Source: Harmothoe impar (Eukaryota > Annelida > Polychaeta > Phyllodocida > Polynoidae). From it: a stretch of 64,000 bases of DNA. Made by a program: the position numbers and the translations under genes. The DNA lies in the NCBI GenBank assembly GCA_947462335.1, contig OX381708.1, forward strand, positions 248,001 through 312,000. The letters run 5' to 3'. This document shows, in pieces, positions 1-56,429 of the stretch (position 1 is the first letter of the stretch; the number at the start of each line of letters is the position of its first letter). The notes beneath the pieces were generated by a model, which worked only from the letters and a program-made list of their open reading frames with translations, made no database searches and was not told the origin of the DNA.

Positions 1-1040
1 GGTTTCCCCTGCATTTGTCTTACTCAGGCATCTTTCAGGTCCCAACATGTACGCTCTTGCTTTGCCTCCTCGACGTGGTGACCGAGACAGGCCAGCAGTG
101 CGCGGCCGCCCGGAGACATCGGATCCTGCCATGGATGCGAACGCCCTGTCACTTTCATTGCGCCTGTGCGTTTAGTAGAGCCCAATGACTTGCGCACATG
201 TTAGACTCCTTGGTCCGTGTTTCAAGACGGGTCTGATGGGGTGCCGATCGATTCGCCACGGACCCTAGGCTTCCAAACGGGAGCACACCCAGAGCTGATC
301 AGCCCAGCAGTCGGAACAAACTATAAACAGTCCATCCTCGACCCAACCAAACTAGGCAGGGGCCCGCGCCATCCCGAGGGAGGAGGAAGCGGCAGCATGC
401 TTTCCCTCGGTTCACCGGCCGGGCTCTGAGCCCAGGGACTATAACACGGGAGGCGCCTGAAGGCGTTCCGGCTACCTTTCCTCGGGACTTCTCTCCTCGT
501 GGAAAGAGCACCCTCAGGAGCCCGCAAACACTGAAGCAGTCCCATGTGGATCTACAATCAGAAGCTCCGAGCCCTCGGAAGAGTTGAATTCCACGAGGCT
601 ACTTTGCGGTCACATCAGTTTGCCTCTGAGTGGTTTCACGTACTCTTGAACTCTCTCTTCAAAGTCCTTTTCAACTTTTCCTCACAGTACTTGTCTGCTA
701 TCGGTCTCATGTCAGTATTTAGCCTCAGATGGAGTTTACCACCCACTTTGGGCTGCATTCCCAAACAACCCGACTCCAAGGACATTTAGAGGCACGTTGG
801 CCCTCGCCTAGACTAGAGGCCTGACACACGCTATGAGAAAGGCCCCGATCAGGAGCACTCGGACCGGAGCACGTACCGGAGTGATCGTCCTAAAAACCAC
901 AGTTCACTGCCGCAGCAACAGGGGATTCAGTGGTGGGCTATTCCCGCTTCACTCGCCGTCACTAGGGAAATCCTTGTTAGTTCTTTTCCTCCGCTTAGTG
1001 ATATGCCTAAGTTCAGCGGGTAATCCCCCCTAAGGCGATG
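1..1040 (-). pseudogene. 28S rRNA 5' part, degenerate copy (copy 1)
   Basis: Read on the minus strand, this matches the 5' part of nuclear large-subunit rRNA. It has the start of 28S near 1020-1040 (a slightly altered ACCCGCTGAACTTA-GC motif with G for A), the AAGCGGAGGAAAAGAA segment near 985-1000, and the GGGAATGCAGCCCAAAGTGG and AAAGTTGAAAAG...TTTGAAGAGAGAGTTCAAGAG blocks near 650-765. Near 190-230 it has CTTGAAACACGGACCAAGGA. Several universally conserved positions are changed. The window edge cuts this copy; the second copy shows that the 28S continues and has lost internal segments. I infer a non-functional pseudogene. All open frames here are shadows of rRNA. Confidence 0.88.
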
Positions 1041-1116
1041 GACCGAGGCAATCCACCCGTGAGTGAACTGACGCTACTACGCTCAAGGTGCGCACGAGAA
1101 TGGACTTCCGGACGTC
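1041..1116 (-). other. ITS2 remnant between 5.8S and 28S
   Basis: Short spacer between the recognisable 5.8S 3' end and 28S 5' end on the minus strand. It is very short for a metazoan ITS2 (about 75 bases), in line with a shortened, decayed rDNA unit. Boundaries are approximate. Confidence 0.6.
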
Positions 1117-1272
1117 AACCAACCCTGAGACAGGCGGGGCCTTGGGAATGCCCAAGGCCGCAATATGCATTCAAGATGTCGCTGCTCAATGTGTCCTGCA
1201 ATTCACATTAATTAACGGAGCTGGCTCTACTCTTCATCGACGCATGAGCCAAGTGATCCATCGCTGAGTCCA
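1117..1272 (-). pseudogene. 5.8S rRNA, diverged copy (copy 1)
   Basis: The minus strand carries the 5.8S landmarks GATGGATCACTTGGCTCATG, GCGTCGATGAAGA and AATGTGAATTGCAGGACACA, followed by a GC-rich hairpin. The core that normally follows CGATGAAGA (AACGCAGC and its pairing partner) is replaced by an unrelated stretch, and the segment after GACA is also altered. Because that core is nearly invariant in eukaryotes, I infer that this copy is not a working 5.8S gene. Confidence 0.82.
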
Positions 1273-1408
1273 TTCCGCTGCCTCCTTCCAAAGTTGGACT
1301 TTGATTGGAATTGGGTTGGGTCATGGGGCCACAGAGAAACCGACGCAAGCGATCGGGAACCGAAGCCCACCGGTGCGCGTTGCTCTCGTCTCCGGGGTCC
1401 AAGAGAAC
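1273..1408 (-). other. ITS1 remnant, truncated by a 400-bp deletion
   Basis: Spacer between 5.8S and 18S. Compared with the second copy (52892-53194 plus part of the 18S), about 400 bases are missing here at a join around 1408-1410. The lost part includes the rest of ITS1 and the extreme 3' end of 18S. Confidence 0.65.
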
Positions 1409-1738
1409 TCTTACCAGGACGAATGACACGTTGATTCCTTCAGTGTAGCACGTGCGGCCCCGAACATCTCAGGGCATCACAGACCTGTTATTGCTCAATC
1501 TCGCGTGGCTGTACGTCACTTGTCCCTCTAAAAAGTTGGTGTCGACTGGACGGACCAGGTAAATCGATGGACTAGTCAGCAGGTCAGAGTCTCGTTCGTT
1601 ATCCTAATTAACCAGACAAATCGCTCCACCAACTAGGAGCGGCCATACACCGCCACTTACCAAATCAAGAAAGACCTCTCAATCTGTCTCAATCCTAATG
1701 GTGTCCGGGCCAGGTGAGTTTCCCCGCCACGAGTCCCA
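1409..1738 (-). pseudogene. 18S rRNA 3' part, broken (copy 1)
   Basis: The minus strand matches the 3' domain of small-subunit rRNA: blocks equivalent to CACAGACCTGTTATTGCTCA, CTCGTTCGTTATC..AATTAACC and AGACAAATCGCTCCACCAAC (read on the plus strand). The 3' terminal end is absent because of the 400-bp deletion, and homology stops near 1738 where unrelated satellite begins. It cannot yield a functional 18S. Confidence 0.88.
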
Positions 1739-2637
1739 CCCCCCATGTACTAATGGCACAAGGGTGGTGACATTGTGAGGCATGTCACGAACTTTGAAGA
1801 GCTCTCATACAGAAACCGCCAGGACTTTCACCACCAAATTCGGGTTCAGGAGGAGTTTCTGGGTAGCTTTTCAAAAAAAAGAATTCGGAGTGATGACTTG
1901 AGGTCCAAGTGTAGGAATGACCTTTCGGTAGGTTTCAATAAGGGTATCCACTTCACGTCGAAGTATGGGCCTAGTATTTTCTCTTTTATAGAGATTTTAT
2001 TCAGGGTATCCATTTCAAGTCCAAATGCAGAAATCTCGTGTAGCTAGCGGTAGGTTTCCCTGGACATCAGAGGAGGATGCACATTTAATAGCAGCAGGCT
2101 TTCCCTGGACGTCAGACAAGGATGCACGCTAGTGGCAGGCTTCCCTGGACGTCAGACAAGGATGCACGTTAGCGGAAGGCTTACTAAGAGGTTTTATTCA
2201 GAGTATCCATTACAGGTCAAAGTGCAGGAATGACTTTTCAGTGCAGTTTAATTCAGAGTATCAACCAGAGGTCCAAGTGTAGGAATTACCTTTCGTGAGG
2301 TTTAAATGAGGGTATCCACTGCAAGTGCAAGTCCAAGTATAGGCCTAGCGTCTGCTATAGAGGTTTTATTCAGGGTACCCACTTCAGGCTCAAGTGTAGA
2401 AATGGCCTTCTGAGATTTCTTTTTGAAGAGTATCCCGACGGCACATGGTAGTATCAGGGTTTGCTTGGACGTCAGACGAGGATGCACGTTAGCAGCAGGC
2501 TTATCCTGAGGTTTTATTCAGGTCAAAGTGTGGGAATGGCCTGTCAGTGAGGTTTAGATGAGGGCATCCACTTCAAGTCTTAGTGTAGGCCTAGTATCGG
2601 TCTTCTATAGAGGTTTTATTCAGGGTATCCACTTCAT

Positions 2638-3141
2638 CCTAGTAGCAAACACACTGTGGCCCCTGACGGGGCCAGACTGTGTTTACAAGTATGGCCCGGA
2701 GTGGGCTAACCGACGGGCTTCCGTCGGTTTAGGCCACCGGGCTTTGGTCTGGCCCCGTACGGGCTGCCCATGTTGGGCGCAGATCGGGTTTTGGATGGTC
2801 TGCCCACTTTGGGTTCAGATCAGTTTTTGGACGGGCTGATAGCGGGTTCAGATCATTTTTTGGACAGGCTGAAAGCGGGTTCAGATCGGTTTTTGGACGG
2901 GTTGAAAGCGGGTTCAGATCGGTTTTTGGACGGGCTCGCTAATTTGGTTGCACAGCACCTTCTGATAATTATGGGTGTTTAGAATCTATTCAATCATTTC
3001 CCCAGATATCCTAGGGTTTCCTGTTATCTGCCACACATGGACCCAAAGCGGGCAGCCCACTTTGGAACTGATCTGAGCCCAAATCGGGCAGCCTGCTTTG
3101 AAACTGATCTGAGCCCAAAATGGGCAGCCCAATCGGGGCCA
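2638..3141. mobile_element. Foldback-type element inside the satellite (copy 1)
   Basis: A 504-base stretch interrupts a class B satellite unit. It is bounded by an 8-base direct repeat, CACTTCAT, at 2630-2637 and 3142-3149. Inside, GGGCTGCCCA..TTGGGC.CAGATC units run one way (2758-2830) and their inverse runs back (3045-3135), with TGTGGCCCC near the left end (2655) mirrored by GGGGCCACA at the right. Between the arms lie about four 33-base tandem units around TTCAGATCGGTTTTTGGACG. It has no transposase. An 8-base target duplication would suit hAT-like transposition, but the left inverted terminus sits about 17 bases inside the direct repeat, so this is tentative. Confidence 0.5.
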
Positions 3142-4111
3142 CACTTCATTTCAAGTCCAAGTGCAGGAATAGCCTTCAGCGCATGTTAGCAGCAGGGTAC
3201 CTGGGCGTCAGACAAGGATGCACATTAGCGGCAGGGTTTCCCTGGACGTCAGACGAGGATGCACTTTAGCAGCAGGGTTACCTGGACGTCAGATAAGGAC
3301 GCACGTTAGCAGCAGGGTTACCCTGGACATCAGACGAGGATGCACGTTAGCAGCAGGGTTACCTGGACGTCAGATAAGGACGCACGTTAGCGGGAGGGTT
3401 TCCCTGGACGTCAGATGAGGACGCACGTTAGCAGCAGGGTTACCTGGACGTCAGATAAGGACGCACATTAGCGGCAGGGTTACCCTGGACATCAGACGAG
3501 GACGCACGTTAGTGGCATGGTTACCCTGGACCTCAGACGAGGACGCCCATTAGCAGCAGGCTTATCCAGAGGTTTTATTCAGAGCATCCACTACAGGTCA
3601 AAGTGCAGGAATGGGCTGTGAGTGCACGTTATTTCAGAGTATCAACTAGATGTCCAAGTGTAGGAACGGCCTTTCATGAGGTTTTATTCAGGGTATCCAC
3701 TTCAAGTCCTAGTGTAGGCCTAGTGTCTGTCATTTATAGAGGTTTTATTCAGGGTATCCACTTCAGACTCCAGTGTAGAAATGGCCTTCTGTGATTTCTA
3801 TTTTAAGAATATCACGAGGGCACATGGTAGTAGCAGGGTTTGCTTGGATATCAGATGAGGACGCACGTTAGCGGCAGGCTTATCCAGAGGTTTTATTCAG
3901 GTCAAAGTTTAGGAATGGCCTGTCAGTGAGGTTTTAATGAGGGTTTCCCTTTCAAGTCCAAGTGTAGCCTAGTGTTGGCCTAGTATCGGTCTTATATAGA
4001 GGTTTTATTCAGGGTATCCACTTCAGGCTCAAGTATAGGAATGACCTTTTGTTAGTTCTTTTTAAAGAGTATCGACCTGAAGTCCAAGTGTAGGAACGAC
4101 CTGTCATGAGG

Positions 4112-4117
4112 TTTTAT
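4112..4117 (-). terminator. Possible poly(A) signal downstream of the endonuclease gene
   Basis: AATAAA on the minus strand, supplied by a satellite class B unit about 420 bases past the stop codon of the His-Cys box gene. It is the nearest such hexamer that I noticed. Its use is inferred only. Confidence 0.25.
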
Positions 4118-4536
4118 TCAGGGTATCCATTTCAAGTCCAAGTGCAGGAATAACCTTTAGTGCCTGTTAGCGGCAGGGTTACCCTGGACGTCAGACAAGG
4201 ACGCACGTTAGCGGCAGGGTTTCCCTGGACGTCAGACGAGGACGCACGTTAGCGGCAGGGTTACCCTGGACGTCAGACAAGGACGCACGTTAGCAGCATG
4301 GTTACCCTGGACGTCAGACGAGGACGCACGTTAGCAGCATGGTTACCCTGGACGTCAGACAAGGACGCACGTTAGCGGCAGGGTTACCCTGGACGTCAGA
4401 CAAGGACGACACCCAACTTGAATCACTTCAACTTCTGGCTGTGCTTTGCAAAGTCGCATCAACATGTAAATATTGAACACCAACAGTGAAAAAACACCTT
4501 AATCTAGAATATTACAAGTTGGATATACTGACACTG

Positions 4537-4989
4537 TTATGGAAACTGGCAATATGGGTCGTGTGCCTTGGAGCAGTGACGCATCAGCTTGCAGGTCCGG
4601 CGATCGGCGTTCTTACTCCGCGTCTCAAGGGTGAGGTGGTCGCTGTTCACGCACAACGTGGTATGGCAGAGATGGGAAACTTCAAGTTTGTTGTCTTTTG
4701 AATGAAGAATCCTTAGATCATAGTGCTTCAACATGTAGACCAGTCTGTGGACTGACATTGGCTTGTTTTTCAGGCCTAGCTCTATTCTAGTAACAGCCTT
4801 CACGCCGTATCTATTGTCTTTACCTTTGCCAGTTGCTGCCCCCGTCCACAAGAGGCAGCCACCAGCTCCCCCCACACACCGGTTATGGATCAAGACGAGT
4901 TGCTCGTCACACCAGCGCTTGAGATCAGGTTGGAAGACGCCTGTAGAGGAAATAGCTTTAAATGAGGGTTCCAGCCAAATCCACTCCAT
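4537..4989 (-). CDS. His-Cys box (I-PpoI-like) homing endonuclease, copy 1
   Basis: Uninterrupted 150-codon frame, ATG at 4989, TAA at 4537-4539. The C-terminal half has the His-Cys box signature: S-H106-L-C108-H, C113, H118-L, E122, N127, R130-R131, C133, C139, H143 and C147, with an upstream C45 in a CLLWTG motif and an HRL motif at 81-83. Spacings match those known for Physarum I-PpoI: catalytic His to metal-binding Asn is 21 residues, Cys-Cys 5, Cys-His 5, Asn-Cys 6. This suggests H106 as general base, N127 as Mg ligand, zinc 1 from C45/C108/C113/H118 and zinc 2 from C133/C139/H143/C147. The family makes site-specific DNA breaks with a beta-beta-alpha-metal fold, usually as a dimer; I-PpoI is 163 residues and cuts 28S rDNA. 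No intron is seen, no group I intron surrounds it, and it lies 2.8 kb from degenerate rDNA. Assignment to the fold is strong; target and activity are unknown. Confidence 0.85.
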   Translation of the reverse strand: MEWIWLEPSFKAISSTGVFQPDLKRWCDEQLVLIHNRCVGGAGGCLLWTGAATGKGKDNRYGVKAVTRIELGLKNKPMSVHRLVYMLKHYDLRILHSKDNKLEVSHLCHTTLCVNSDHLTLETRSKNADRRTCKLMRHCSKAHDPYCQFP

Positions 4990-5039
4990 GTTTACTGGGA
5001 CCTTTGGATACCGTGAACCAAAAAAGTGATCAAACTGTT

Positions 5040-5104
5040 ACCGGGGTCACAAGAAGCCCGGTCACAACTTGGATAGGGTTCAAATAGTGCTGCAGCATAT
5101 AAAA
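5040..5104 (-). promoter_or_regulatory. Possible promoter region of the endonuclease gene
   Basis: Upstream of the ATG on the minus strand there is a small perfect inverted repeat (ACCGGG at 5040-5045, CCCGGT at 5057-5062). An A/T-rich TATA-like heptamer lies at 5098-5104 and reads TATAAAA on the plus strand. Neither is diagnostic. Confidence 0.2.
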
Positions 5105-6826
5105 CAGCGCCCAATACAACTGCCTTTTAACATAATTCAATAAAGTGATCTCAATAGCCAAAGGCCTTTTTTGAACAAGTCATGTTTTAATTGTAATTTT
5201 ACATCAAAATCAAGAAAGACTAGCAACATCTCACACTAACAATAGACTGGGGTCATATTATTAAATCCTTCCTAATCAATATCCATCCAACCACCAACAT
5301 ACTAGAATGCTGGTCACAGAATCATGTCAACAAACCTGCATGGTCAGCCATCTTGGAAGTGAATCATTTCATTTCTGACCCAACCCAAATGGACCCCCAA
5401 ACAATTCCTTCATAACAATCAACCATGCTTATATACATCTCTCATCATGATGAGACCTTATTCTGGCTCTATTCTCATCTCTAACACAATTTCCAAAAAA
5501 ATACCAAACTATTTAGACCACTCAGAGCTCATCTGGTATTCACTGCAGACTGATTCTTTCCCTAATTATGCACTCACTCACCCCCCACACCAAACTTGGT
5601 CACAGTCTTCTCATGACTCTCACCCCCACCAAACTTGGCCACAGTCTTGTCATGCCCAACAGCAACAAACAACCTAAAACAGTCTAGCTCCTCTTCAAAC
5701 AACACTCCTAACTAACAGCAAGTCACAGCATTTTGTCTTTGGCTGCTGTAGTCTGCCTGGATTGATAGATTCCTTCTCTAGCCTACATTGGAGCTTTTTT
5801 CACAATTTCCGAGTGCCGAAAATTTGCGTATCGTCGTCTGCGCCGGCCTTATTATGGCCTAGGGAGACTGTGACTGCATTGGGGGTTGTAGCCCTGAATC
5901 TCCTCTTTCCAGCAACGTTTGAATTTTGAAAATCGGTTGATAAATAGCCGAGTAAATGCAAGTTTTCTAAGAAATGATTTAAAAAAAGAATTTCTTCCAA
6001 TTTTTCTGATTTTCAAATGTCGACGAGTTTTCCGAAAAGCGGCAGGCACTCTATATAGGGCTTAGAAAGGTGAAGAAATGAAGAGCTTACAAAATTCTGA
6101 TCGAAATGGACTATTTACATGTCAAAATCAGACAAGATTTCATTTTAATTAATTTTCTTTGACAGCCAAAAATGTGTAGGCCTATTTGGGTGCTATTTTC
6201 GGTTTGCTTATAGCTGTCACTACAGTGACAGACCCACCCACCTACAGAGGGAGTCTACCATGCTGTACCATGTGATCAGGGAGTGGTCAGTTCTTAAACA
6301 AAGGGAGGGCATGGCAAAAAATAATTAGCCCCTTCTGGTGGGGGAGGGGAATGCCAGAAATGAAGAGCAGACAAAATTCTGATCGGAATGGACTATTTAC
6401 ATGTCAAAAAATGGAACAAGATTTCATTTTTTGACAGCCAAAAATATGTATTGGGTGTTCATTTTCACCTTGTTGAACTGTCACAATAGTGAGAGAACCC
6501 CCTACCCACCGCCGGACCCACCCATCCAGACTACAGACAATATGGGCCAATATTGTGTATTGGAGTGGTCATTTTCGGTTTTTCAATTGTCACTATAGCA
6601 ACAAATCCACCCACCCACGCCCATTGACAGAAACAGATAAACTGCTGGTGGCCAAAACTAAAATAGCACTGTTTCTTGATGTGTTAACATTTGACCATGT
6701 AAATGTACAGTTTTACAGTCCCTTCCCATCCCCTGCTTTTAGAATTGGATCACACCCAGAACAACAACACAACACACCATACATTCATGATTCTATTTGC
6801 TGATTTCACTTTTATTTTGCACACAG
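5105..6826. other. Non-coding stretch upstream of the plus-strand gene tail
   Basis: AT-rich, with no convincing gene. A short direct repeat containing CACCAAACTTGG occurs near 5588 and 5630. Open frames here are short and lack recognisable domains. Confidence 0.5.
6066..6620. repeat. Imperfect direct repeats of about 150-290 bases
   Basis: A block starting AAATGAAGAGC and running through ACAAAATTCTGATCG.AATGG, ACTATTTACATGTCAAAA and TTGACAGCCAAAAAT to ACCCACCC occurs at about 6070-6245 and again at 6357-6530. A partial third tail (TGTCACTATAG..CCCACCC) lies at 6541-6620. It is present in both large copies. Confidence 0.65.
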
Positions 6827-7135
6827 CATTATATTCCACCTGTCTCCAATGTGTACCACCAGACATCGTCGTCCGGTGCTACGAGTCGGTTGACGCCGTC
6901 ACAGATACTGCAGTCCCCATACACGGTAAGCAACTGGGCTCAAAGGCTAACCCAGTAGGTCTACCTACCTGTGACTGAAATAAGATAACATGCCTAAACC
7001 AGATAAGAATTGTATTTGTTTGAATTTGTTTTTTTGGTTTTTTTAATATAAAAGATTTTAATTGATGTGTCGAAAGATGTAACCTTTTGTCCTTTTATAT
7101 AGGGGACTTTGTCTTCCCATGTGGTCGGTCATGAG
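6827..7135 (+). CDS. Last two exons of an unrecognised gene (copy 1)
   Basis: Two exon candidates join in phase. The first, 6827-6925 (33 codons), has a pyrimidine-rich acceptor ending CACACAG and donor GTAAGC; it reads HYIPPVSNVYHQ through SQILQSPYT. The second starts at 7103 after acceptor TTTTATATAG, reads GDFVFPCGRS, and stops at TGA 7133-7135. A 3' UTR and poly(A) signal follow. I do not recognise the protein; it is Ser/Pro-rich with no visible domain. No upstream exon is evident between the endonuclease gene and 6826, so the gene body lies beyond the satellite/rDNA block or has been cut off by it. It could be a fortuitous exon pair, but the matched phase and splice sites argue for a real gene end. 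Confidence 0.45.
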
Positions 7136-7295
7136 GCTCCAAGATCAAGTTGACTTGTGACGCAGCAACACCGGAAGAGATTTAGTCGAGCATAGATGAG
7201 GCTTTTCTCCCGGATGGAAGCATCATGTGTTTACTTATAATACCTGCATGGGTTAACTCTTAGAAGACTTCCCTGTGTAAAATATCATGTATTTC

Positions 7296-7395
7296 CTTAA
7301 AGTGGCATTCTCACCAAGCGTATCCCACTCACAATTCTAGTACTGTTCTAGTCTGCTATGTGGTTAAGTGCGAGTGGTGAGAATGCCCCTTTAAG
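7296..7395. mobile_element. 100-bp MITE-like inverted repeat
   Basis: Imperfect terminal inverted repeats: CTTAAAGTGGCATTCTCACCA at the left and the inverse of TGGTGAGAATGCCCCTTTAAG at the right, each about 20 bases, enclosing about 60 bases. No coding capacity. Confidence 0.7.
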
Positions 7396-7439
7396 GTGTA
7401 TAAGGATGAGGCCTCTCTCACAGATAAAGAGGGTGGCAT

Positions 7440-7575
7440 TAATGTATTAATGTGTCATGCCCTTGGTCGTCATGATGTATCAATGCAGCCCTGAGCTGAT
7501 CATGCATCATGCTGTTTGTGTTTTTTTTTACTCTCGAAGGATCATCATGATGCCCTAGGCAGTACCAGCGCGTTA
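7440..7575. mobile_element. Palindromic GCATGAATGCAGCC-family MITE fragment
   Basis: Carries the family motifs CATGCCCTTGGTCGTCATGA, ATCAATGCAGCCCTGAG and GCATCATGC in the usual order. Other members lie at 27600, 34660, 36840, 46968, 49255, 49800 and 50365. Confidence 0.6.
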
Positions 7576-7694
7576 CTTTCCAGCACTGCATTGGTGCATC
7601 ACAAGGACAACTGTATGGTGAGTCCCCCTGGTGTGAAGTGTGTGAACTGCCTCAACTATTTCTTGACAAGAGACAGTGCTGCCATCTGTCTTAC

Positions 7695-7907
7695 CATAAA
7701 ACCTCGCGTATAACCCTAACTCTCGTATTAGCCGCACCCCGACTTTGGGCCGACCCTATAAGCCGCACCAGAATTCTGATTATGGTGCCTTTAGCACTGT
7801 ACCATAGTAGCAAAAACTCGTGTATAACCCGCACCCTGACTCTGGGTCTATCCTATAAGCCGCGCTGCTGATCTGAAAAGCGGCGGCTTATATGTGAGGT
7901 TTTACAG
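7695..7907. mobile_element. MITE with TAAAACCTCGCGTATAA inverted ends
   Basis: The left end TAAAACCTCGCGTATAA pairs with the inverse of TTATATGTGAGGTTTTA at the right. The inside has repeated TATAAGCCGCACC and CCGACTTTGGG-type motifs. The ACAGTA-like right terminus next to TA suggests a Tc1/mariner-related non-autonomous element. Related fragments lie near 26641-26830 and 29720-29780. Confidence 0.6.
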
Positions 7908-7969
7908 TAGTTGACCTGTTACGAGGCCCTGTATCTATGTTATTCAGTGATTCATGTGGTTTACAATGA

Positions 7970-7975
7970 AATAAA
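7970..7975 (+). terminator. Poly(A) signal of the plus-strand gene
   Basis: AATAAA within ACAATGAAATAAACATGA, about 835 bases after the inferred stop and followed by a TGTGTCTGTCTC-type GT-rich stretch. It converges with the minus-strand signal at 8123. Confidence 0.5.
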
Positions 7976-8122
7976 CATGACCAAACATAGTCTGTGTCTG
8001 TCTCTTACTGTTATAGACTCTACATGTAATGCCGGGGAAAGTTTAGTGGTAACCCCTTCAAATTGAAACCCCACAAATTAAACACAGTAGAAAAAGGAGG
8101 CAAGTTGTGATTGATTGAGCCG

Positions 8123-8128
8123 TTTATT
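8123..8128 (-). terminator. Poly(A) signal of the tubby gene
   Basis: AATAAA on the minus strand (plus: TTTATT), about 3.9 kb after the tubby stop codon, with no other gene between. Cleavage would fall near 8105. The tail-to-tail arrangement with the plus-strand gene supports a real transcript end. Confidence 0.5.
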
Positions 8129-11100
8129 TCTGTACAGCAGACAATATCTTAATTTCACACAATCTGGAGAACAGTAAACAAAATATATACTTTACAAGAT
8201 AACATGTGATACAATGTCGCACACATAAAATGTCATAGTCAATGAATACAAACTGTGAGTTGTCAACTAGTGCTCTAGAAAGCTTGTTAAAAGTGCTGGA
8301 CGGTATCGGGACGGCGCTGCGGAGGCACCGTGTTTCTTTTAGTGGGTCGAGTTGAGAGTTGACTTGTACCTCCCCGTGCTTCCTCCAGGGGGGGCTGCGG
8401 TCAGCTGTCTGACACGCTGCAGGTAAAAGTGGGTCAAGTTCCAAGATGTAAAGCAGTATTACAATCTCACACACCCTGCATGACATGAAAAGGTGACGGT
8501 GGAGGGTCGGTACAAAAATAGCCCCATGCTCTGAAGTACTCGGCAACTATCACTCCTGAACCATAACCTGCTAGGTTACTGCACTTCTTTGGTTCTTTTA
8601 TATACAGAACTTATCCATGGAATTCTAGAATACAGCAATGGAAACATGTGTAATGGTATATTCAGGTAATACAGGATAGGCTTACAGCAAATATGATAAT
8701 AATAAAGAGAGTGGTTCATGCTATTATGTTGTCTTTAAATTTAACAGTAGCGAAACCTTTAAGAGGTCCTCTCACCAAGAGTGTACTGGACACTGTAAAC
8801 TGGTCAACTCATGAGGAGCTGGTTACTGGGGAGAGGGCCGCTTTAAACAGACCAGTTTCTGGGACTTTGTGTGAGAAGCTTGGAGGGTGAGGTTTACTGC
8901 CCATGCTGCTGCCTAGAACAGGCAGCAGCAGTGAGGGGCGGCAGGCAGGAGCGGCAGGCAGGTCTTCAGGGTGAAGCTCTATGTGACCTTGTAGTTTGTA
9001 CATTGTGCTGCTACCTGTTTGGTCCCTAGATCATCAGTCAAAACGACAGGGGAGAATCCCCGGCTGCTAACAGCTAGGTGTTCCTCCTGTTACGGTGAGA
9101 TCTATCTCGCTACTGAAGGGTACACTTTGGGGTCAGCGCGGCTTTCACACGTTTCATGGTAAATAAGACGGTCTACACTACGCAGCATGCGCTGTCTATA
9201 TACTAAGGGGCTGACGGGGCAGGCACAAACAGAGATGACGTGAAGAGGTGAACAAACCTACCAGCAGTCTGTACCATCAGAAGCCAACACAGAGTTGGTT
9301 CTGTACAAGTCTTCCTCCTCTGGCACCCTGCACACAGCTTCCACCCTCATGTGGTGTGCAGAGGGTGCTGAGGGTGATGTCTGGGCGCACCGCCCCCGGT
9401 TAGTAGTAGTTACATGACATAGTACATACCCACGCAGCATCATCAGTATAATCCAAGTCATTCTAATACAACGCAAGTCACTGCTAATACAATGTAGGTC
9501 GCTACAATAGATACAACATGTGTTCCCCATCCTGTGCTGGACTTGAAGGTCGTTTACTGACAGAAAACTGTGGTGTTAGTTTACTGCAGAATGGGTCTCG
9601 GTGACCGCACTCTGCTGACCTTACTGGCACGGTGTTCAAGGATGGTTGCTGCAGCATCAGATGACACTTTCTGGTCTCAGTAACAACAGTTAATTTGATA
9701 TTTGTACTTCTTCTCCCAAACATAAATACATTTTCTTACTATGAAACATTTGATACAAGGCTCCTATTAAACCACTCATTGGAAAACTAAAATTCTGACT
9801 GTTTTTTTCAAGGTTTGCCACTCTGCCTGGAAACTACGAGCCTGATACAGATTCAGAGGACGTTTACATGAAATGTGAATCCTGCCGTATTGAATGAGGG
9901 CATTACGTCATGGTGTGTCGGTGTGTGTGTCTGGTGTGGGTGTCGTATAACAGCGTATGATAACAGGTTTAGCAGGCTGCGCCGTGCTACGTACATACTG
10001 TGTCTAATACTGCACCGCTGTGTGACGGATCTGACACCTTTGTGCAGCCTATAACAGACAGGTCAGCTCACATCGAGCCGTGTAAAACTGGAACTGTCAG
10101 GGTATGCCATGTCAGAAACCCTCTGCTGTAAAACACCATGGGGCCATAGTTAAACCCGCAGGTCTCGGTACCCCTCCAGCGGCAGTCGGAGTGGAGTCGG
10201 GACAGGTACTCAGCGCTATATATAGGGGCACTGGGCCTTTAAGCCATTTCAATCTCTGTATGACTGGTCCTTGATGTAATCAGATTTTGTTTAGTCAAGT
10301 GTCACATTATTTTCTTCAAAGATGAACAATCCCCTAACAAAAACTCACAATATCTATATTGACGGTGGTCCTGGAAAATCACATATTCTTTTCAATCTCT
10401 AATTTAGATTCAAGATGAGGTGCTGGGTGCGGTTGGTTTTGTGGATTGTGACAAAGCAGGCGCACATGGCCTCGTGGCAAACATAGCAGAAGCGGCCTAA
10501 ACGGCATTTCATGTTGTTTCATACGCAATACTCAACATAAGTAATCCAATGGGGGTAAAAAAACAACATAGCAACAGCAAGTATATCACACCTGTGGGAC
10601 TGCATGCAGGTCATCCCTAAATACACAGGAACCACCACAAAGTCTGCCGCTGACTTGGTGTTCCACCTGGTCAAAGCCACAACTAGATCAATGCGGGCGG
10701 CAAATATAGACCAATGTCATTGTGACTGGCTCTAAGCATAATGACTTTGTAAAACAAACTGCTGTCTGTCACTGCCTCCATAGCCTCCTGTGGATACATC
10801 AAAGAGGAATGTGAACTAGAAGCAGGGGTAGGTAGATGATGTGTGCGGTGGGGGTGGGAGACATGGCTAGATGCGGTCTGCAGAATGGGCTGATGAGGGA
10901 TGAAGGTGTACATGACATGATGAAGGATCTACACACAGCCTCCTCCGTGTCACACATTGTGGCACAGAGTCAGCCACCTGCTGGAATGGATACATCGTAC
11001 AGAAACCACCGCCTCCTATTGTCACATCAGATAATAATAACAATAATAATAACAGTTACACGGATAACCTGGACTAACGCTTCATACAATGTCTGCTACC

Positions 11101-12052
11101 TACACAAATCTGGGGGTAAAAGGAATTCCATGTCTATCCAGCTGTGAACTTGATACAACATAGTAACACAGGATGATGGGGTGGGGCCAAACTGAGGACT
11201 AGATTATGTAATGCACTGTATATCACCACATGGGGGAATAGACTGAGGACTTTATATCAATATAACATTGTGTATATCACTGGTGACTATATGCTTTAGT
11301 GCTGCTCAGAGTATCGGTGTAGTTGACCTCCCACGGCAGCTTGTTCCCATGTTGGGGGGATCCTGACCACTCGGTCTACAAGAGGGGCCGTGTGTCAGGC
11401 GCCATAACGTTCTCAGGTAGGCAATACGGCGCATGCACAGTAAACCGTTGGGACAGTAAAAACTACAAATATCCATACATATATATATAATTATCTTACG
11501 ATAGAGACTCATACAAAACTTGTCTTTCTAAAATGCTCCTCCAATATCACTTACAAACCCTTTGGGATAAAAGCGTCTCCCGTAGTGTGAGAAAATAGTG
11601 GGTGTTGAAATCAGCATGAGTCTGGGTGATGCGTGCTGGGTGTGCCCTCCTCACCCACCGCCACCCCCGCCTGCACGCCGTCTGTCACAGGGCACTACCA
11701 ACTCCACGTCTCTCAAGTAAAAATATATCTTGTTGTGGGACACGGCGAGGGGTAAGAAGAAGAGTGGTCCAGGTGTGATATACAGAGTCAGTGAGGATGC
11801 TGAAGGTAGCATGCAGCAAACCCGACAGCTGTGAGACAAGGGGTTGTCACCACTGCTGGCTGGCAGTGGGGTGGGGGCTGTCAGGTTGGCTGCCCTACCA
11901 CCACTCTCTGCCCGGGCAGCACATAATACACCCCGCAGGTGACTACTTTGTGGAATGGTCGACTGTTTGTTCTGAAATGTCTCCAACTCGGACAATAAGA
12001 TAAACACAGGAGGGCCGCTGCATGGAGGGTCGACTGGCGGGAGGCAGGGCGC
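8129..12052 (-). other. Inferred tubby 3' UTR / downstream region
   Basis: No convincing exon on either strand over 3.9 kb. The 140-codon minus frame at 8124-8546 has no domain and overlaps the poly(A) signal. A simple AAT-type run lies at 11031-11051. I infer an untranslated region because the nearest minus-strand poly(A) signal that I found is at 8123. Confidence 0.4.
8756..8850. mobile_element. Diverged MITE-like inverted repeat
   Basis: CTTTAAGAGGTCCTCTCACC at the left faces the inverse of GGGGAGAGGGCCGCTTTAAA at the right. Size and end sequence (CTTTAAG, CTCACCA) resemble the element at 7296, so it is probably a diverged relative. Confidence 0.4.
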
Positions 12053-12186
12053 TCATTCACAGGCCAGCTTACTGTCAAAGCTGCTCAGGGCGACGCCAAA
12101 GGCCTGCACGGCACACATGGGGTAGTTGTAGTCCATGGTGAAGACTTCCTCAGCCACACGACCAAACTGCATCACAATGTAGTCAA
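12053..12186 (-). CDS. TUB: Tubby terminal exon
   Basis: Acceptor CCCCTACAG precedes TTGACTACATT. The exon encodes the final 45 codons including stop, ending in the family's invariant [10 protein letters not shown] tail. Confidence 0.95.
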
Positions 12187-15100
12187 CTGTAGGGGCACAA
12201 CACAACGCAAGGTCAGATTAAATCATCACATAGAACACATGCACAATCTGTCCAATCACAGTTTACTTTTCTAATGACTAAGTTTGCCCTATGTATGGTG
12301 GTAGACAATTCTTCAATTATTTATTATTTTAACTTAATCTATTGTAAGTGCAACACCATACTATCTTCAGGTATATTCAAACTCTTTCCTCAGTGCACAA
12401 TGCTGACTACACCCTTGTGCACATATCTTGTCCTCCTGGTGAAGAACCTCAGCCACTTTAAGGCTGTATAGAGTCTAACACAGGCTAACTTAGTACAAGC
12501 TACTCACCATCATTGTCATGAACAATTTGGAAATTCTTCACGGAGGCTTGTGTAACGCGCCCGTGGAAGTTAAGGACGTAGGACTGTGTGTCTGCAAGCA
12601 ACAAACAAATAGGGTCAGTCTCACAATTCAACCATTTACAATGTACATTCTTAATACATGGATATGACATGGAATTTTTTTCTTTTTACTCTGATTCATG
12701 AAAGTGCGGATTAAAAATGGGAAAATGTGATTCATTAAACTCATCTGCTAATACACACATCAGGTCTATGCTGCATTATCTAGTGGCACATTCCACACAG
12801 TTGTCAGGGAAGACACCTCTATTAAAAGCTGTTTAGTTCAGATATAGAGCCTGGTCCTGCAGTACTCATTCTGCTAACCTGGTTCTGCTAATGAACCTTT
12901 TACTAAGTGATTCATAATGCCCCTTTGTATGCTGATAACAAGATTAGCCGCATGTTCTATAACTGCCTCCCACACACCCCATACCAAGGTACACTGTGTA
13001 TAACTGCCTCCTACATGTAATATATCAAGGTGCGCTGTGAGTGAGTCTTATTTATAATGGCAGACCATGTTATACAGCTCATGAAGATGACTACATCCCA
13101 GGTTATATAACCTACTGTGGGTAAGAAGACAGAACACAGACCTTCATTCCAGACTGGTGTCTTATTGTGTAGTTCCAGCAGGTTCTCCATATTCTTGTTC
13201 TTCCATCTCGATATCAAACCATCATGGTCCTAAAACACCAGAACAACAAGATATCAAACCTGTGTGCTATTAAAGTACTAAGTGACCAGAATAAAGAGGT
13301 TATTACAAATACTTGTTATCATGTAGCATAGAATATCACATTATGAGTTATCATGACTTACATTTTTAGGTTTGATGTCGACTCGCTTTTGGTCCAGGTT
13401 CATACCAGGGATGACAACTGTCATTTTCCGTGGTCCTTTAAACCCGAGAACATTTGTTTCCTGCAAAAGTAAATAAATTAATTTAAATGCAATGTATCAA
13501 TATCTTTAATATTAATTTGCAATACAATTTGGAGATATTTAGTTTGGCCAAGTTTCAAATTTTACAGCCTTCCTTCAGTTTTAGAATGCTTAAGCAATGA
13601 CAACTTAAATGGCCAATAATCAAAGTGCTGACATCAGGCATACATGCTTTTTGACATTGTCTCACAATTGTAACACAAGACTTGACCTATAAAAGGGTAA
13701 GTATACGTACATATACAGCGGCGGCCATTTCACAGCGGAGATTGCTGGTGTCAGAGCCGTGGTTCTTTGGACTGTCGCCTCCATCAAATACGGTGAACTG
13801 TGTGCCCAGGAGGTTAGATCTGCAGAAGAGAACAAAACACACATGTACATTACAGTCTCTGACACCAAATTATGACGTATCAAAGCACCCATTTTGCAAA
13901 GAACTCAAGGCTGCCTCAACACAATGCCTAATCTTCAATACAACTGGTTGAAAGGGTAATTTATTCTTTATACAAATCCGCCAAATTTCCAATAATTTAA
14001 TTCCAAAGGTTCTGCATGGTAGTACAGAGAGTTAACTAGTGTCAAGTGAGGTAACTACGAACCTGAGTTTGCCGACGAATGCGTCTCCCCCGCGGGACAG
14101 GTCGGTGGGGTCGGTGGAGATGAGATAGTTAGAGGTGGCACTCTTCTTCCGTTTCCGTGCAGCTAACAAGAATACCTGACAACAACAAAATAAAGTTTAT
14201 TGCTCAGACTCTCTGGTATGTAGGTACATAGACATAGTATCCACATCCTTTACATGTCAATGACCATTGTGATGAAGGTAGTTGATTAATTCAGTATTGA
14301 CAAATGTTGAAAAGCCGTTAAATATTGGGAGTATTGATGCATACACAATATGCTAATTCATACAATGTTAGTGTCAGGTACATGTTAGGATGAGCCTGGT
14401 ACACCTGGACATGTGGCTTGTGTCTAGTACATCCTGGACCACCCTTCGGTGAGCCGTGTGTCTTTACTATATAACAAATAGTACACAGTGTTCTCTATGA
14501 TGCAGTCTGTGGCCAGCCGATATAAAGAGTGGATTCTTTATACCCAAGGCAGCTGAGGAAAGTGCAAGGAGATATTTAAAGGAGTCTAAGTAGAATAACT
14601 ACAAGATATTTTACTTGTGACTATGAAGATTATAGGTTTTTTAAATCAGTATCACCTTTAATGCAGACTTAAAGTCAAATCTTACTTAGGACAACTTAGA
14701 CATGGCAATCTTCAATTAATTTTGTGTATTACATGAAGAAATATGTTAATGTAACTATCTGCTGCTACACGGCTTCAGTCCACACCACGCCTCGCTATAC
14801 TCCACTGTACACCACTACTTATCCACTGCTAGGTCACGCAGGTGTTACTTTGTCACACAGAAAGAGCTGATAATCAGACACGGGCAGACGCAGCCACCCA
14901 GGGTGTCAGGGGGTTAGTTTACACTTACACCACCAGGTGAGGTCACTGTTGTCATGGTAACCAGGTGGCTGACTGATTCAGCTAGTTGTTGGTATTGTAT
15001 TCATTGTATTGGATGCTGTGTACGGCCTTTACAACATGACTTAACGATGCAGTGAATCATTGGTCACTACGTATAGAGAGATGGTCATGTCCCACAGAAT

Positions 15101-33400: not shown

Positions 33401-33790
33401 TGTATAAATAAGACATACTAACAGCTCACACGGGGGTCAGCCCGGGACTGAACATGTATAAATAAGACATACTAACAGCTCACACGGGGGTCAGCCCGGG
33501 ACTGAACATGTATAAATAAGACATACTAACAGCTCACACGGGGATGAGCCCGGGACTGAACATGTATAAATAAGACATACTAACAGCTCACACGGGAGTC
33601 AGCCCGGGACTGAACATGTATAAATAAGACATACTAACAGCTCACACGGGGATGAGCCCGGGACTGAACATGTATAAATAAGACATACTAACAGCTCACA
33701 CGAGAGTCAGCCCGGGACTGAACATGTATAAATAAGACATACTAACAGCTCACACGGGAGTCAGCCCGGGACTGAACATGTATAAATAAG
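30447..33790. repeat. 54-base satellite-like array, about 62 units
   Basis: Unit CAGCTCACACGGGGGTCAGC, CCGGGACTGAACATGTATAA, ATAAGACATACTAA. Very homogeneous: most variation is at two sites, GGGG/GGAG-TC and CTGAAC/CTGGAC, with a rare GGGATGAG variant twice near the right end. Each unit has the palindrome-like GGGTCAGCCCGGG and a TATAAATA box. No long open frame. Confidence 0.97.
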
Positions 33791-45572: not shown

Positions 45573-46680
45573 CCTAGCGGTAGGTTTCCCTGAACGTCAG
45601 AGGATCCACTACAGGTCAAAGTGCAGGAATGACTTTTCAGTGCAGTTTAATTCAGAGTATCAACCAGAGGTCCAAGTGTAGGAATGAGGTTTCGTGAGGT
45701 TTTAATTAAGGTATCCACTTCAAGTCCAAGTATAGGCCTAGTGTCCATCTTCTATAGAGGTTTTATTGTGGGTATCCACTTCAGGCTCAAGTGTAGAAAT
45801 GGCCTTCTGAGATTTCTTTTTTAAGAGTATCACGAGGGCACATGGTCGTAGCAGAGTGTGCTTGGACGTCAGACGAGGACGCACGTTAGCAGCAGGCTTA
45901 TCCAGAGGTTTTATTCAGGTCAAAGTGTAGGAATGGCCTGTCAGTGAGGTTTTAATGAGGGTATCCCTTTCAAGTCCAAGTGTAGCTTAGTGTAGGCCTA
46001 GTATCGGACTTATATAGAGGTTTTATTCAGGGTATCCACTTCAAGTCCAAGTGCAGGAATAGCCTTCAGCGCACATTAGCGGCAGGGCTACCCTGGACGT
46101 CAGACCAGGACGCACGTTAGCGGCAGGGTTACCCTGGACGTCAGACAAGGACCCACGTTAGCGTCATGGTTACCCTGGACGTCAGACCAGGACGCACGTT
46201 AGCGGCAGGGCTACCCTGGACGTCAGACAAGGACCCACGTTAGCGTCATGGTTACCCTGGACGTCAGACAAGGACGCACGTTAGCGGCAGGGTTACCCTT
46301 GACGTCAGACGAGGACGCACGTTAGCGGCAGGGTTACCCTGGACGTCAGACGAGGACGCACGTTAGCGGCATGGTTACCCTGGACGTCAGATGAGGACGC
46401 AAGTTAGCGGCAGGGTTACCCTGGACGTCAGACAAGGACGCACGTTAGCGGCAGGGTTACCCTGGACGTCAGACAAGGACGCACGTTAGCGGCATGGTTA
46501 CCCTGGACGTCAGACAAAGGACGCACGTTAGCGGCAGGGTTACCTGGACGTCAGACGAGGACGCACGTTAGCGGCATGGTTACCCTGGACGTCAGACGAG
46601 GACGCATGTTAGCAGCAGGGTTACCCTGGAGGTCAGACGAGGACGCGGCCTAGCGGCAGGGATTACCTGGACGTCAGACT
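45573..46680. repeat. Composite satellite, third diverged block
   Basis: Class B units (45573-46060) lead into about 14 class A units (46070-46680), the same two repeat classes as at 1739-4410 but without the foldback element and without rDNA beside it. It then continues into the sequence that flanks the endonuclease gene. Confidence 0.85.
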
Positions 46681-46891
46681 AGTAAGACACCCAGCTTGAA
46701 TCACTTCAACTTCTGTCTGTGCTTTGCAAAGTCACATCAACATGTAAATATTGAACACCAACAGTGAAAAAACACCTTAATCTCGAGCATTACAAGTTTG
46801 ATATACTAAAACACTGATAGGATTTTATGATTTGGTTTGAGAAGCCTTAGCCTTTAATCTAGAACATTACAAGTTTGATATACTAACACTG

Positions 46892-46967
46892 TTATGGAAA
46901 CAGACAATATGGGACGTGTGCCTTGGAGCAGTGCCGCATCAGTTTGCAGGTCCGGCGATCGGCTTTC
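46892..46967 (-). pseudogene. His-Cys box endonuclease, C-terminal remnant
   Basis: The last 23 codons of the endonuclease frame, in phase with TAA at 46892-46894. The protein begins ADRRTCKLMRHCSKAH and keeps C133, C139, H143 and C147 (numbering of the intact copy). Against copy 1 there are three silent changes and two replacements (D144V, Q148L). Homology ends where palindromic-MITE sequence begins. The remnant is truncated and not functional. Confidence 0.8.
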
Positions 46968-51150: not shown

Positions 51151-52655
51151 GACATTCAGAGCACTAGGCAGAAATTACATTGCGTCAACACCAGGCTATG
51201 GCCATTGCAATGCTTTGTTTTGATTAGACAGTCGGATTCCCCCGGTCCCTACCAGTTCTAAGTTGGCTGTTGGACCACGGACGAAGCGGATGCGCCGACC
51301 ACAGTTGCCCGCAGCCGACACCGCACAGCTGAGGCGGTCCATGGGAAGGTCCCGGCGACGGTCCGAGCTTGACGCGCCGTTGCCGACGACGTCTCGTCCA
51401 GCCCCTGCCGGTTCCAGGCCCGGTTCGCACCCCAGCCCGACCGGCCCAGCCCTTAGAGCCCACCAGAGGCTGTTCACCTTGGAGACCTGCTGTGGATATG
51501 GGTATGGTCGGGCACCAAAATATCACCGTCTCCCCAGGTTTTTCAAGGGCCGACAGTCTTTTAGCCCTATAAGTTCGAGGATTGATTTGCAAGTCATAAT
51601 AGCTGCGGATCTCCATCAGGGTTTCCCCTGCATTTGTCTTACTCAGGCATCTTTCAGGTCCCAACATGTACGCTCTTGCTTTGCCTCCTCGACGTGGTGA
51701 CCGAGACAGGCCAGCAGTGCGCGGCCGCCCGGAGACATCGGATCCTGCCATGGATGCGAACGCCCTGTCACTTTCATTGCGCCTGTGCGTTTAGTAGAGC
51801 CCAATGACTTGCGCACATGTTAGACTCCTTGGTCCGTGTTTCAAGACGGGTCTGATGGGGTGCCGATCGATTCGCCACGGACCCTAGGCTTCCAAACGGG
51901 AGCACACCCAGAGCTGATCAGCCCAGCAGTCGGAACAAACTATAAACAGTCCATCCTCGACCCGACCAAACTAGGCAGGGGCCCGCGCCATCCCGAGGGA
52001 GGAGGAAGCGGCAGCATGCTTTCCCTCGGTTCACCGGCCGGGCTCTGAGCCCAGGGACTATAACACGGGAGGCGCCCGAAGGCGTTCCGGCTACCTTTCC
52101 TCGGGACTTCTCTCCTCGTGGAAAGAGCGCCCTCAGGAGCCCGCAAACACTGAAGCAGTCCCATGTGGATCTACAATCAGAAGCTCCGAGCCCTCGGAAG
52201 AGTTGAATTCCACGAGGCTACTTTGCGGTCACATCAGTTTGCCTCTGAGTGGTTTCACGTACTCTTGAACTCTCTCTTCAAAGTCCTTTTCAACTTTTCC
52301 TCACAGTACTTGTCTGCTATCGGTCTCATGTCAGTATTTAGCCTCAGATGGAGTTTACCACCCACTTTGGGCTGCATTCCCTAACAACCCGACTCCAAGG
52401 ACATTTAGAGGCACGTTGGCCCTCGCCTAGACTAGAGGCCTGACACACGCTATGAGAAAGGCCCCGATCAGGAGCACTCGGACCGGAGCACGTACCGGAG
52501 TGATCGTCCTAAAAACCACAGTTCACTGCCGCAGCAACAGGGGATTCAGTGGTGGGCTATTCCCGCTTCACTCGCCGTCACTAGGGAAATCCTTGTTAGT
52601 TCTTTTCCTCCGCTTAGTGATATGCCTAAGTTCAGCGGGTAATCCCCCCTAAGGC
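51151..52655 (-). pseudogene. 28S rRNA 5' portion with internal deletions (copy 2)
   Basis: This is the longer view of the 28S remnant. Minus-strand landmarks from 3' to 5': GTGCTCTGAATGTCA (51151-51166), GGGAATCCGACTGT and AAAACAAAGCAT, GGCTCTAAGGGCTGGGCCGG, CAGGTCTCCAAGGTGAACAG, TACCCATATCC, then everything listed for copy 1. Compared with standard 28S order, several hundred bases are missing between the AAAGACT of the expected AAAGACTAATCG site and the CCCTTGAAAA..CTGGGGGAGA-type block. About 60 more are missing after AACAGCCTCTGG. The deletions and truncation after GAATGTCA make it a pseudogene. Confidence 0.9.
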
Positions 52656-52735
52656 GATGGACCGAGGCAATCCACCCGTGAGTGAACTGACGCTACTACG
52701 CTCAAGGTGCGCACGAGAATGGACTTCCGGACGTC

Positions 52736-52891
52736 AACCAACCCTGAGACAGGCGGGGCCTTGGGAATGCCCATGGCCGCAATATGCATTCAAGATGTCG
52801 CTGCTCAATGTGTCCTGCAATTCACATTAAATAACGGAGCTGGCTCTACTCTTCATCGACGCATGAGCCAAGTGATCCATCGCTGAGTCCA
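52736..52891 (-). pseudogene. 5.8S rRNA, diverged copy (copy 2)
   Basis: Same diverged 5.8S as copy 1, with two base differences near its middle and 3' part. The altered core after CGATGAAGA is shared, so that change predates the duplication. Confidence 0.82.
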
Positions 52892-53194
52892 TTCCGCTGC
52901 CTCCTTCCAAAGTTGGACTTTGATTGGAATTGGGTTGGGTCATGGGGCCACAGAGAAACCGACGCAAGCGATCGGGAACCGAAGCCCACAGATGCGCGTT
53001 GCTCTCGTCTCCGGGGTCCAAGAGAACTCTGAGACGCAGGTACCCCAGCAACGCGTATGAAACATGCCAGCATTTGGGATTCGGGAGGCAACCCCACACC
53101 GATTCACCGTCGGGGGAGGAGTCCTTTTTTTCAGTACAAACTCCTGACTGCAAACAATCTTGGTGTTCCGCCGGTTAAGGCTTCGACCAGTTCG
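52892..53194 (-). other. ITS1 (complete in copy 2)
   Basis: Spacer between 5.8S and the 18S 3' end, of which only the part nearest 5.8S remains in copy 1. It contains no coding signal; open frames here are incidental. Confidence 0.6.
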
Positions 53195-53208
53195 ATAAAG
53201 ATCCTTCT

Positions 53209-53253
<45 letters not shown>

Positions 53254-53757
53254 AATGATCAAGTTTACATGGCTCGACGGTTGCCCGCCATGCCAGGGGC
53301 CGGTCCGAGGATCTCACTAAACCAACCAATCAATGACAGGCACTTACTGGGAATTCCTTGTTCATGGGAAAGAATTACAAGCTCCAATCCCTAGCATGAA
53401 GGAGGTTCAACGGGTTACCCGATCGTTCCTTACCAGGACGAATGACACGTTGATTCCTTCAGTGTAGCACGTGCGGCCCCGAACATCTCAGGGCATCACA
53501 GACCTGTTATTGCTCAATCTCGCGTGGCTGTACGTCACTTGTCCCTCTAAAAAGTTGGTGTCGACTGGACGGACCAGGTAAATCGATGGACTAGTCAGCA
53601 GGTCAGAGTCTCGTTCGTTATCCTAATTAACCAGACAAATCGCTCCACCAACTAGGAGCGGCCATACACCGCCACTTACCAAATCAAGAAAGACCTCTCA
53701 ATCTGTCTCAATCCTAATGGTGTCCGGGCCAGGTGAGTTTCCCCGCCACGAGTCCCA
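53195..53757 (-). pseudogene. 18S rRNA 3' part with deletion of the decoding region (copy 2)
   Basis: The plus strand begins GATCCTTCTGCAGGTTCACC, ACGGAAACCTTGTTACGACT: the true 18S 3' end. About 60 bases that normally lie between CCAATC and GCACTTACTGGGAATTCCT are missing. That segment includes the GACGGGCGGTGTGTAC decoding-site block, invariant in living ribosomes. Homology ends near 53757 at satellite DNA. Confidence 0.9.
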
Positions 53758-56429
53758 CCCCCCATGTACTAATGGCACAAGGGTGGTGACATTGTGAGGC
53801 ATGTCACGAACTTTGAAGAGCTCTCATACAGAAACCGCCAGGACTTTCACCACCAAATTCGGGTTCAGGAGGAGTTTCTGGGTAGCTTTTCAAAAAAAAG
53901 AATTCGGAGTGATGACTTGAGGTCCAAGTGTAGGAATGACCTTTCGGTAGGTTTCAATAAGGGTATCCACTTCACGTCGAAGTATGGGCCTAGTATTTTC
54001 TCTTTTATAGAGGTTTTATTCAGGGTATCCATTTCAAGTCCAAATGCAGAAATCTCGTGTAGCTAGCGGTAGGTTTCCCTGGACATCAGAGGAGGATGCA
54101 CATTTAATAGCAGCAGGCTTTCCCTGGACGTCAGACAAGGATGCACGCTAGTGGCAGGCTTCCCTGGACGTCAGACAAGGATGCACGTTAGCGGAAGGCT
54201 TACTAAGAGGTTTTATTCAGAGTATCCATTACAGGTCAAAGTGCAGGAATGACTTTTCAGTGCAGTTTAATTCAGAGTATCAACCAGAGGTCCAAGTGTA
54301 GGAATTACCTTTCGTGAGGTTTAAATGAGGGTATCCACTGCAAGTGCAAGTCCAAGTATAGGCCTAGCGTCTGCTATAGAGGTTTTATTCAGGGTACCCA
54401 CTTCAGGCTCAAGTGTAGAAATGGCCTTCTGAGATTTCTTTTTGAAGAGTATCCCGACGGCACATGGTAGTATCAGGGTTTGCTTGGACGTCAGACGAGG
54501 ATGCACGTTAGCAGCAGGCTTATCCTGAGGTTTTATTCAGGTCAAAGTGTGGGAATGGCCTGTCAGTGAGGTTTAGATGAGGGCATCCACTTCAAGTCTT
54601 AGTGTAGGCCTAGTATCGGTCTTCTATAGAGGTTTTATTCAGGGTATCCACTTCATCCTAGTAGCAAACACACTGTGGCCCCTGACGGGGCCAGACTGTG
54701 TTTACAAGTATGGCCCGGAGTGGGCTAACCGACGGGCTTCCGTCGGTTTAGGCCACCGGGCTTTGGTCTGGCCCCGTACGGGCTGCCCATGTTGGGCGCA
54801 GATCGGGTTTTGGATGGTCTGCCCACTTTGGGTTCAGATCAGTTTTTGGACGGGCTGATAGCGGGTTCAGATCATTTTTTGGACAGGCTGAAAGCGGGTT
54901 CAGATCGGTTTTTGGACGGGTTGAAAGCGGGTTCAGATCGGTTTTTGGACGGGCTCGCTAATTTGGTTGCACAGCACCTTCTGATAATTATGGGTGTTTA
55001 GAATCTATTCAATCATTTCCCCAGATATCCTAGGGTTTCCTGTTATCTGCCACACATGGACCCAAAGCGGGCAGCCCACTTTGGAACTGATCTGAGCCCA
55101 AATCGGGCAGCCTGCTTTGAAACTGATCTGAGCCCAAAATGGGCAGCCCAATCGGGGCCACACTTCATTTCAAGTCCAAGTGCAGGAATAGCCTTCAGCG
55201 CATGTTAGCAGCAGGGTACCTGGGCGTCAGACAAGGATGCACATTAGCGGCAGGGTTTCCCTGGACGTCAGACGAGGATGCACTTTAGCAGCAGGGTTAC
55301 CTGGACGTCAGATAAGGACGCACGTTAGCAGCAGGGTTACCCTGGACATCAGACGAGGATGCACGTTAGCAGCAGGGTTACCTGGACGTCAGATAAGGAC
55401 GCACGTTAGCGGGAGGGTTTCCCTGGACGTCAGATGAGGACGCACGTTAGCAGCAGGGTTACCTGGACGTCAGATAAGGACGCACATTAGCGGCAGGGTT
55501 ACCCTGGACATCAGACGAGGACGCACGTTAGTGGCATGGTTACCCTGGACCTCAGACGAGGACGCCCATTAGCAGCAGGCTTATCCAGAGGTTTTATTCA
55601 GAGCATCCACTACAGGTCAAAGTGCAGGAATGGGCTGTGAGTGCACGTTATTTCAGAGTATCAACTAGATGTCCAAGTGTAGGAACGGCCTTTCATGAGG
55701 TTTTATTCAGGGTATCCACTTCAAGTCCTAGTGTAGGCCTAGTGTCTGTCATTTATAGAGGTTTTATTCAGGGTATCCACTTCAGACTCCAGTGTAGAAA
55801 TGGCCTTCTGTGATTTCTATTTTAAGAATATCACGAGGGCACATGGTAGTAGCAGGGTTTGCTTGGATATCAGATGAGGACGCACGTTAGCGGCAGGCTT
55901 ATCCAGAGGTTTTATTCAGGTCAAAGTTTAGGAATGGCCTGTCAGTGAGGTTTTAATGAGGGTTTCCCTTTCAAGTCCAAGTGTAGCCTAGTGTTGGCCT
56001 AGTATCGGTCTTATATAGAGGTTTTATTCAGGGTATCCACTTCAGGCTCAAGTATAGGAATGACCTTTTGTTAGTTCTTTTTAAAGAGTATCGACCTGAA
56101 GTCCAAGTGTAGGAACGACCTGTCATGAGGTTTTATTCAGGGTATCCATTTCAAGTCCAAGTGCAGGAATAACCTTTAGTGCCTGTTAGCGGCAGGGTTA
56201 CCCTGGACGTCAGACAAGGACGCACGTTAGCGGCAGGGTTTCCCTGGACGTCAGACGAGGACGCACGTTAGCGGCAGGGTTACCCTGGACGTCAGACAAG
56301 GACGCACGTTAGCAGCATGGTTACCCTGGACGTCAGACGAGGACGCACGTTAGCAGCATGGTTACCCTGGACGTCAGACAAGGACGCACGTTAGCGGCAG
56401 GGTTACCCTGGACGTCAGACAAGGACGAC
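53758..56429. repeat. Composite satellite next to rDNA (copy 2)
   Basis: Essentially identical to 1739-4410 (one substitution seen, at 54011 versus 1992), including the class A arrays at 54075-54200, 55200-55570 and 56180-56429. Confidence 0.88.
54657..55160. mobile_element. Foldback-type element in the satellite (copy 2)
   Basis: Same element, same position in the satellite and same CACTTCAT flanks as at 2638-3141. Its insertion predates the large duplication. Confidence 0.5.

Follow-up and report, generated by a model that had tools for sequence, protein, structure and literature searches.

An I-PpoI-like His-Cys box nuclease gene beside tandem arrays and ribosomal DNA fragments in the polychaete Harmothoe impar, compared with the nucleases of KolobokP transposons

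KolobokP elements are composite DNA transposons found in seven animal phyla, and most of them encode an I-PpoI-like nuclease, according to Kojima and Bao 2022 (PMC9587614). As described there, a DDD/E Kolobok transposase is encoded beside the nuclease on the opposite strand, and the elements carry long terminal direct repeats of 450 or 660 bp. It is also proposed in that paper that the nuclease breaks the long terminal repeats and that unequal crossover follows, by which the element multiplies. Here we describe a His-Cys box (I-PpoI-like) nuclease gene of 150 amino acids at 4537..4989 on the minus strand of a 64,000-nucleotide stretch of the Harmothoe impar genome (assembly GCA_947462335.1, contig OX381708.1, positions 248,001 to 312,000; hereafter the window, whose own numbering is used throughout). 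We put at about 60% the probability that its product is one of the I-PpoI-type nucleases that animal KolobokP transposons carry. The first-pass annotation of this DNA had regarded an animal I-PpoI-like gene outside an intron as a surprise, a view that loses its force when the KolobokP nucleases are considered (PMC9587614).

The open reading frame (ORF) is intact, with an ATG start, a TAA stop and 150 codons for amino acids. In a profile search its product matched PF05551 with 50.6 bits against the curated cut-off of 27, and its predicted structure shows the I-PpoI fold, with matches to PDB 1a74 and 1evw. Another known system, which lacks the His-Cys zinc clusters, matched far more weakly, no better than unrelated folds did. 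An NCBIfam scan returned no match. The length of the frame alone is insignificant: when the bases of 1741-11981 were shuffled 300 times, 24 of the shuffled sequences contained an ATG frame of 150 amino acids or more. We therefore take the gene as real because of the profile and fold matches and not because of its length.

The active-site residues are consistent with the same family. H106 and N127 are 21 residues apart, S105 precedes the histidine, E122 is at His+16, and the spacings along C108-C113-H118-N127-C133 are 5, 5, 9 and 6. S105, H106, H118, E122 and N127 are spaced as S97, H98, H110, E114 and N119 of I-PpoI, whose positions are those given in PMC9587614. Also, the eight Cys and His residues for two zinc sites are present (C45, C108, C113 and H118 for one, and C133, C139, H143 and C147 for the other) and are likely zinc ligands. 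The intact 150-residue frame, the two catalytic residues with their spacings and both zinc clusters had all been reported by the first-pass annotation, and the profile search, the fold match, the residue list and the alignments described below bear this out; a profile match and a structural fit were among the checks that it had proposed. By family, predicted fold and active-site residues, the gene encodes an I-PpoI-like His-Cys box nuclease. No group I intron was matched by Rfam in the window at the gathering score, nor in 3000-7000 at E<=5, where a sub-threshold snoRNA match was the only result, in agreement with the earlier observation that no such intron was visible.

A total of 27 proteins were listed as relatives, 25 of them at E<=0.0019 and the remaining two at 0.059 (P0026) and 8.2 (P0027). 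All but P0027 were retrieved, and two alignments were prepared. Alignment A3 consists of 25 of these 26 relatives and the window nuclease (26 rows), and in it Y61, S105, H106, C108, C113, H118 and E122 are invariant while C45, N127 and C133 are conserved at 90% or more. Alignment A4 consists of 21 relatives and the window nuclease, without P0021, P0022, P0024 and P0025, which have poor coverage or long tails, and without P0026 and P0027. In A4, every row agrees at C108, C113, H118 and C133, while conservation is at least 90% at C45, C139 and C147 and below 90% at H143. N127 is also invariant in A4, but only because P0022 and P0025, which have no Asn at the metal position, were excluded. The nearest relative, P0001, is 86% identical to the window nuclease and likewise has 150 amino acids. 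In a tree of 22 proteins, the window nuclease was grouped with P0001, P0002 and P0003 (support 96/91), while 14 of the 19 inner branches were left open and most other placements were unresolved; the tree contains no KolobokP or intron nuclease as reference and says nothing on origin. Scans of viral sequences for relatives gave a single match (L001:7947-8366), an HNH protein with 34% identity whose resemblance lies in a WTGAATG stretch; its contig looks phage-like from its frames, and the match was set aside. In prokaryote genomes, 76 stretches fit a search pattern and none of them was a relative.

Several observations weigh against the assignment to KolobokP. The likeness to the KolobokP nucleases is drawn from their published description. 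When 1741-30542 and 46681-51482 were translated in six frames and scanned with Pfam, no transposase was recognised, a negative limited by the untested power of Pfam for Kolobok transposases and by the unscanned stretch 30543-46680, which is mostly tandem arrays; the same scans gave the nuclease, a tubby gene and one sub-threshold match that looks like chance. When 1401-12000 was compared with 1-51619 by BLAST, no long direct repeats were found on both sides of the nuclease gene. Terminal inverted repeats spanning 400-720 bp were searched for in 4409-7000, and the one weak candidate (654 bp, 5727-6380) is at chance level, as 1 of 10 shuffles also contained one. Its right arm falls in a local repeat, and its 12-mer has 16 matches with at most 2 mismatches compared with 6.5 expected, 6 of the 16 being duplication repeats of counted sites. 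The nuclease gene therefore does not appear to belong to a complete KolobokP element in the window, but it may be what remains of one.

The gene is present in more than one copy, and two of the copies had been missed in the first-pass annotation. A second copy at 56556..57008 on the minus strand, inside a 52-kb duplication, encodes an identical protein. The third, at 46892..46966 on the same strand, is truncated and retains codons 128-150 and the stop, with 21 of 23 residues identical; V144 and L148 of this copy match the relative P0001. Next to the first copy, 55-bp and 41-bp tandem arrays occupy 1883..4408, with an interruption at about 2644-3146, and leave 128 bp between their end and the stop codon of the gene. 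A second, independent 55-bp/41-bp array at 45597..46679 adjoins the truncated copy. The truncated copy also has the 3' flank that is found at the first copy (4409..4536, minus strand), with aligned pieces 94.2% and 91.5% identical, and the corresponding flank of the latter (46687..46891, minus strand) is partly duplicated.

Ribosomal DNA (rDNA) is present nearby as degenerate fragments. One fragment lies at 1..1738 on the minus strand and comprises the 5' part of 28S (1-1043, truncated where the window begins), 5.8S (1120-1272) and a piece of 18S (1456-1738). Another lies at 51200..53761, also on the minus strand; its match was cut at 51200 by the searched stretch, and a scan of the whole window placed it at 51462-53761. 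The fragments stand in operon order. On the right-hand side, the 18S match starts only near position 1196 of the 1831-position model and the decoding-site region is lost, the 28S match takes 1463 bases to cover model positions 1-2169 and breaks off where the searched stretch ends, and the 5.8S is altered at conserved positions. We read the fragments as pseudogenes. On the left-hand side, the 18S match ends at 1738 while the array region starts at about 1883, and hence we take the join between the rDNA and the array with its gene as a break point, not an original spacer.

The first-pass annotation inferred an rDNA target for the nuclease. A free-standing homing endonuclease of rDNA itself, for example one residing in the intergenic spacer of functional rDNA and having an rDNA target, would fit with the rDNA fragments on the same strand 2.8 kb from the gene. 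I-PpoI relatives of protists and fungi target rDNA. We nevertheless regard this account as improbable, for the rDNA is degenerate and its 18S match is truncated short of the array region. A BLAST search with the right-hand rDNA fragment gave no hit anywhere in 2001-51199. The array at the third nuclease copy is thus free of rDNA, and the rDNA nearest to that copy lies 4.2 kb away on the side opposite the array. Nor does the window contain a match, at up to 2 mismatches, to the 13-base core of the target of I-PpoI. The 41-bp array adjoins both of the two independent occurrences of the gene, while rDNA adjoins one, and that through a truncated 18S; on this ground the rDNA adjacency looks incidental, a probable result of local rearrangement. 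The linkage claimed by the first-pass annotation is thus retained as to the degenerate 28S, 5.8S and 18S pieces and the array close by, but a special link to rDNA is not, and the case for an rDNA parasite, judged from a window in which all rDNA is pseudogene fragments, is weak.

The shared array, on the other hand, would fit a stand-alone selfish or satellite-linked module composed of the gene and the 55/41-bp array. In such a module, cuts made by the nuclease inside the array or next to it would be repaired from copies that bear the array, and the unit would thereby spread or expand with no need for a transposase in cis. This would account for the 3' flank and array that the two independent occurrences have in common, the frame kept intact in two (duplicate) copies, and the equal length of P0001 at 86% identity. 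Over the 23 codons shared by the full and truncated copies there are 3 synonymous and 2 non-synonymous differences, which points the same way although the comparison is too small to reveal selection. Since only two independent occurrences exist, one of them truncated, and both are explained by the segmental duplication of a region rich in repeats, we consider the module unlikely. A broader form of the proposal, an animal nuclease-satellite element without transposase that spreads or expands the 41-bp satellite and neighbouring repeats, possibly including the decaying rDNA, by breaks repaired via unequal exchange, is doubtful. The intact frame and the length of P0001 could also be expected of a nuclease domesticated and now in host use; this is very unlikely for a gene that is tandemly duplicated and sits among repeats and pseudogenes. 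A chance frame, which the unremarkable length would permit, or a contaminating sequence of protist or fungal origin is scarcely credible in view of the profile, fold and active-site matches and the tubby-family exons on the same contig; a chimeric assembly is the one way in which it could still hold.

As things stand, we consider an ordinary relic to be the most likely state of the window gene. The protein, if made, is most likely a zinc-stabilised beta-beta-alpha-metal enzyme in which His106 is predicted to activate water and Asn127 to hold the metal ion; by analogy with I-PpoI, it would act as a dimer and make a staggered cut at a semi-palindromic site. Within KolobokP, such a break would promote unequal exchange between the terminal repeats. 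On the KolobokP account, the window gene would have lost, or never had, the adjacent transposase and terminal repeats, and as neither is recognised here, its nuclease is predicted to act at best in trans. The gene would then have been caught in a repeat-rich region and copied together with the flanking 41-bp satellite, and later duplicated within the 52-kb block. The KolobokP origin, as well as the activity, dimerisation and target of the nuclease, is what we infer.

The tandem duplication has a 52-kb period. Its left member occupies 1..11981 and its right member 51620-64000, the latter cut by the window end. The sequences 1411-11981 and 53430-64000 are the same except for 2 mismatches over 10.6 kb, and 1-1409 is repeated at 51620-53028 with 8 mismatches. 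The left copy is without a piece of about 400 bases that spans the 3' end of 18S and part of the internal transcribed spacer 1 (ITS1). The duplication may be either a recent real event or a false duplication of the assembly. Within the 52-kb unit, exons of a tubby-family gene were located at 12071..14181 on the minus strand, and the last exon matches the tubby protein PDB 1i7e at E=1.6e-18. These exons support an animal origin of the contig, as the first-pass annotation had also assumed from the letters. Very long minisatellite arrays are found at 30445-33790 (54-bp x 62) and 34928-36095 (19-bp x 62), with further long ones at 37130-43212 (about 32-bp x 182) and 43722-45169 (42-bp x 35). A 73-bp minisatellite at 47255-47901 gives a weak zinc-dehydrogenase match (E=0.0015, below its cut-off) that is probably due to chance.

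Searches of the open-licence literature, covering the beginnings of abstracts, gave no other account of genes of this kind from animals or from animal rDNA, nor one of a satellite-linked stand-alone homing endonuclease of animals. If active, the window nuclease would be a natural candidate for a site-specific enzyme from an animal, and it would allow the multiplication of KolobokP by nuclease-induced unequal crossover to be tested. Should it prove independent of any transposon, it would represent a homing endonuclease of animals that stands alone and is linked to a satellite.

When compared with I-PpoI of Physarum polycephalum (PDB 1a74 and 1evw), the window nuclease is 17% identical, and the two differ in several respects. 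I-PpoI resides in an intron whereas the window gene does not. The second zinc cluster of the window nuclease (C133-C139-H143-C147) has spacings of 6, 4 and 4, unlike the 7, 2 and 4 of I-PpoI. The window nuclease also ends at the residue aligned with I-PpoI 140, and the C-terminal tail of I-PpoI, which contributes to dimerisation, is absent. Unlike KolobokP, the window gene has no recognised transposase or long terminal direct repeats and adjoins a 41-bp satellite and rDNA fragments. Like the His-Me finger nuclease of KolobokP, on the other hand, it is a small I-PpoI-like nuclease in an animal genome, without a group I intron, with the same signature residues and in multiple copies.
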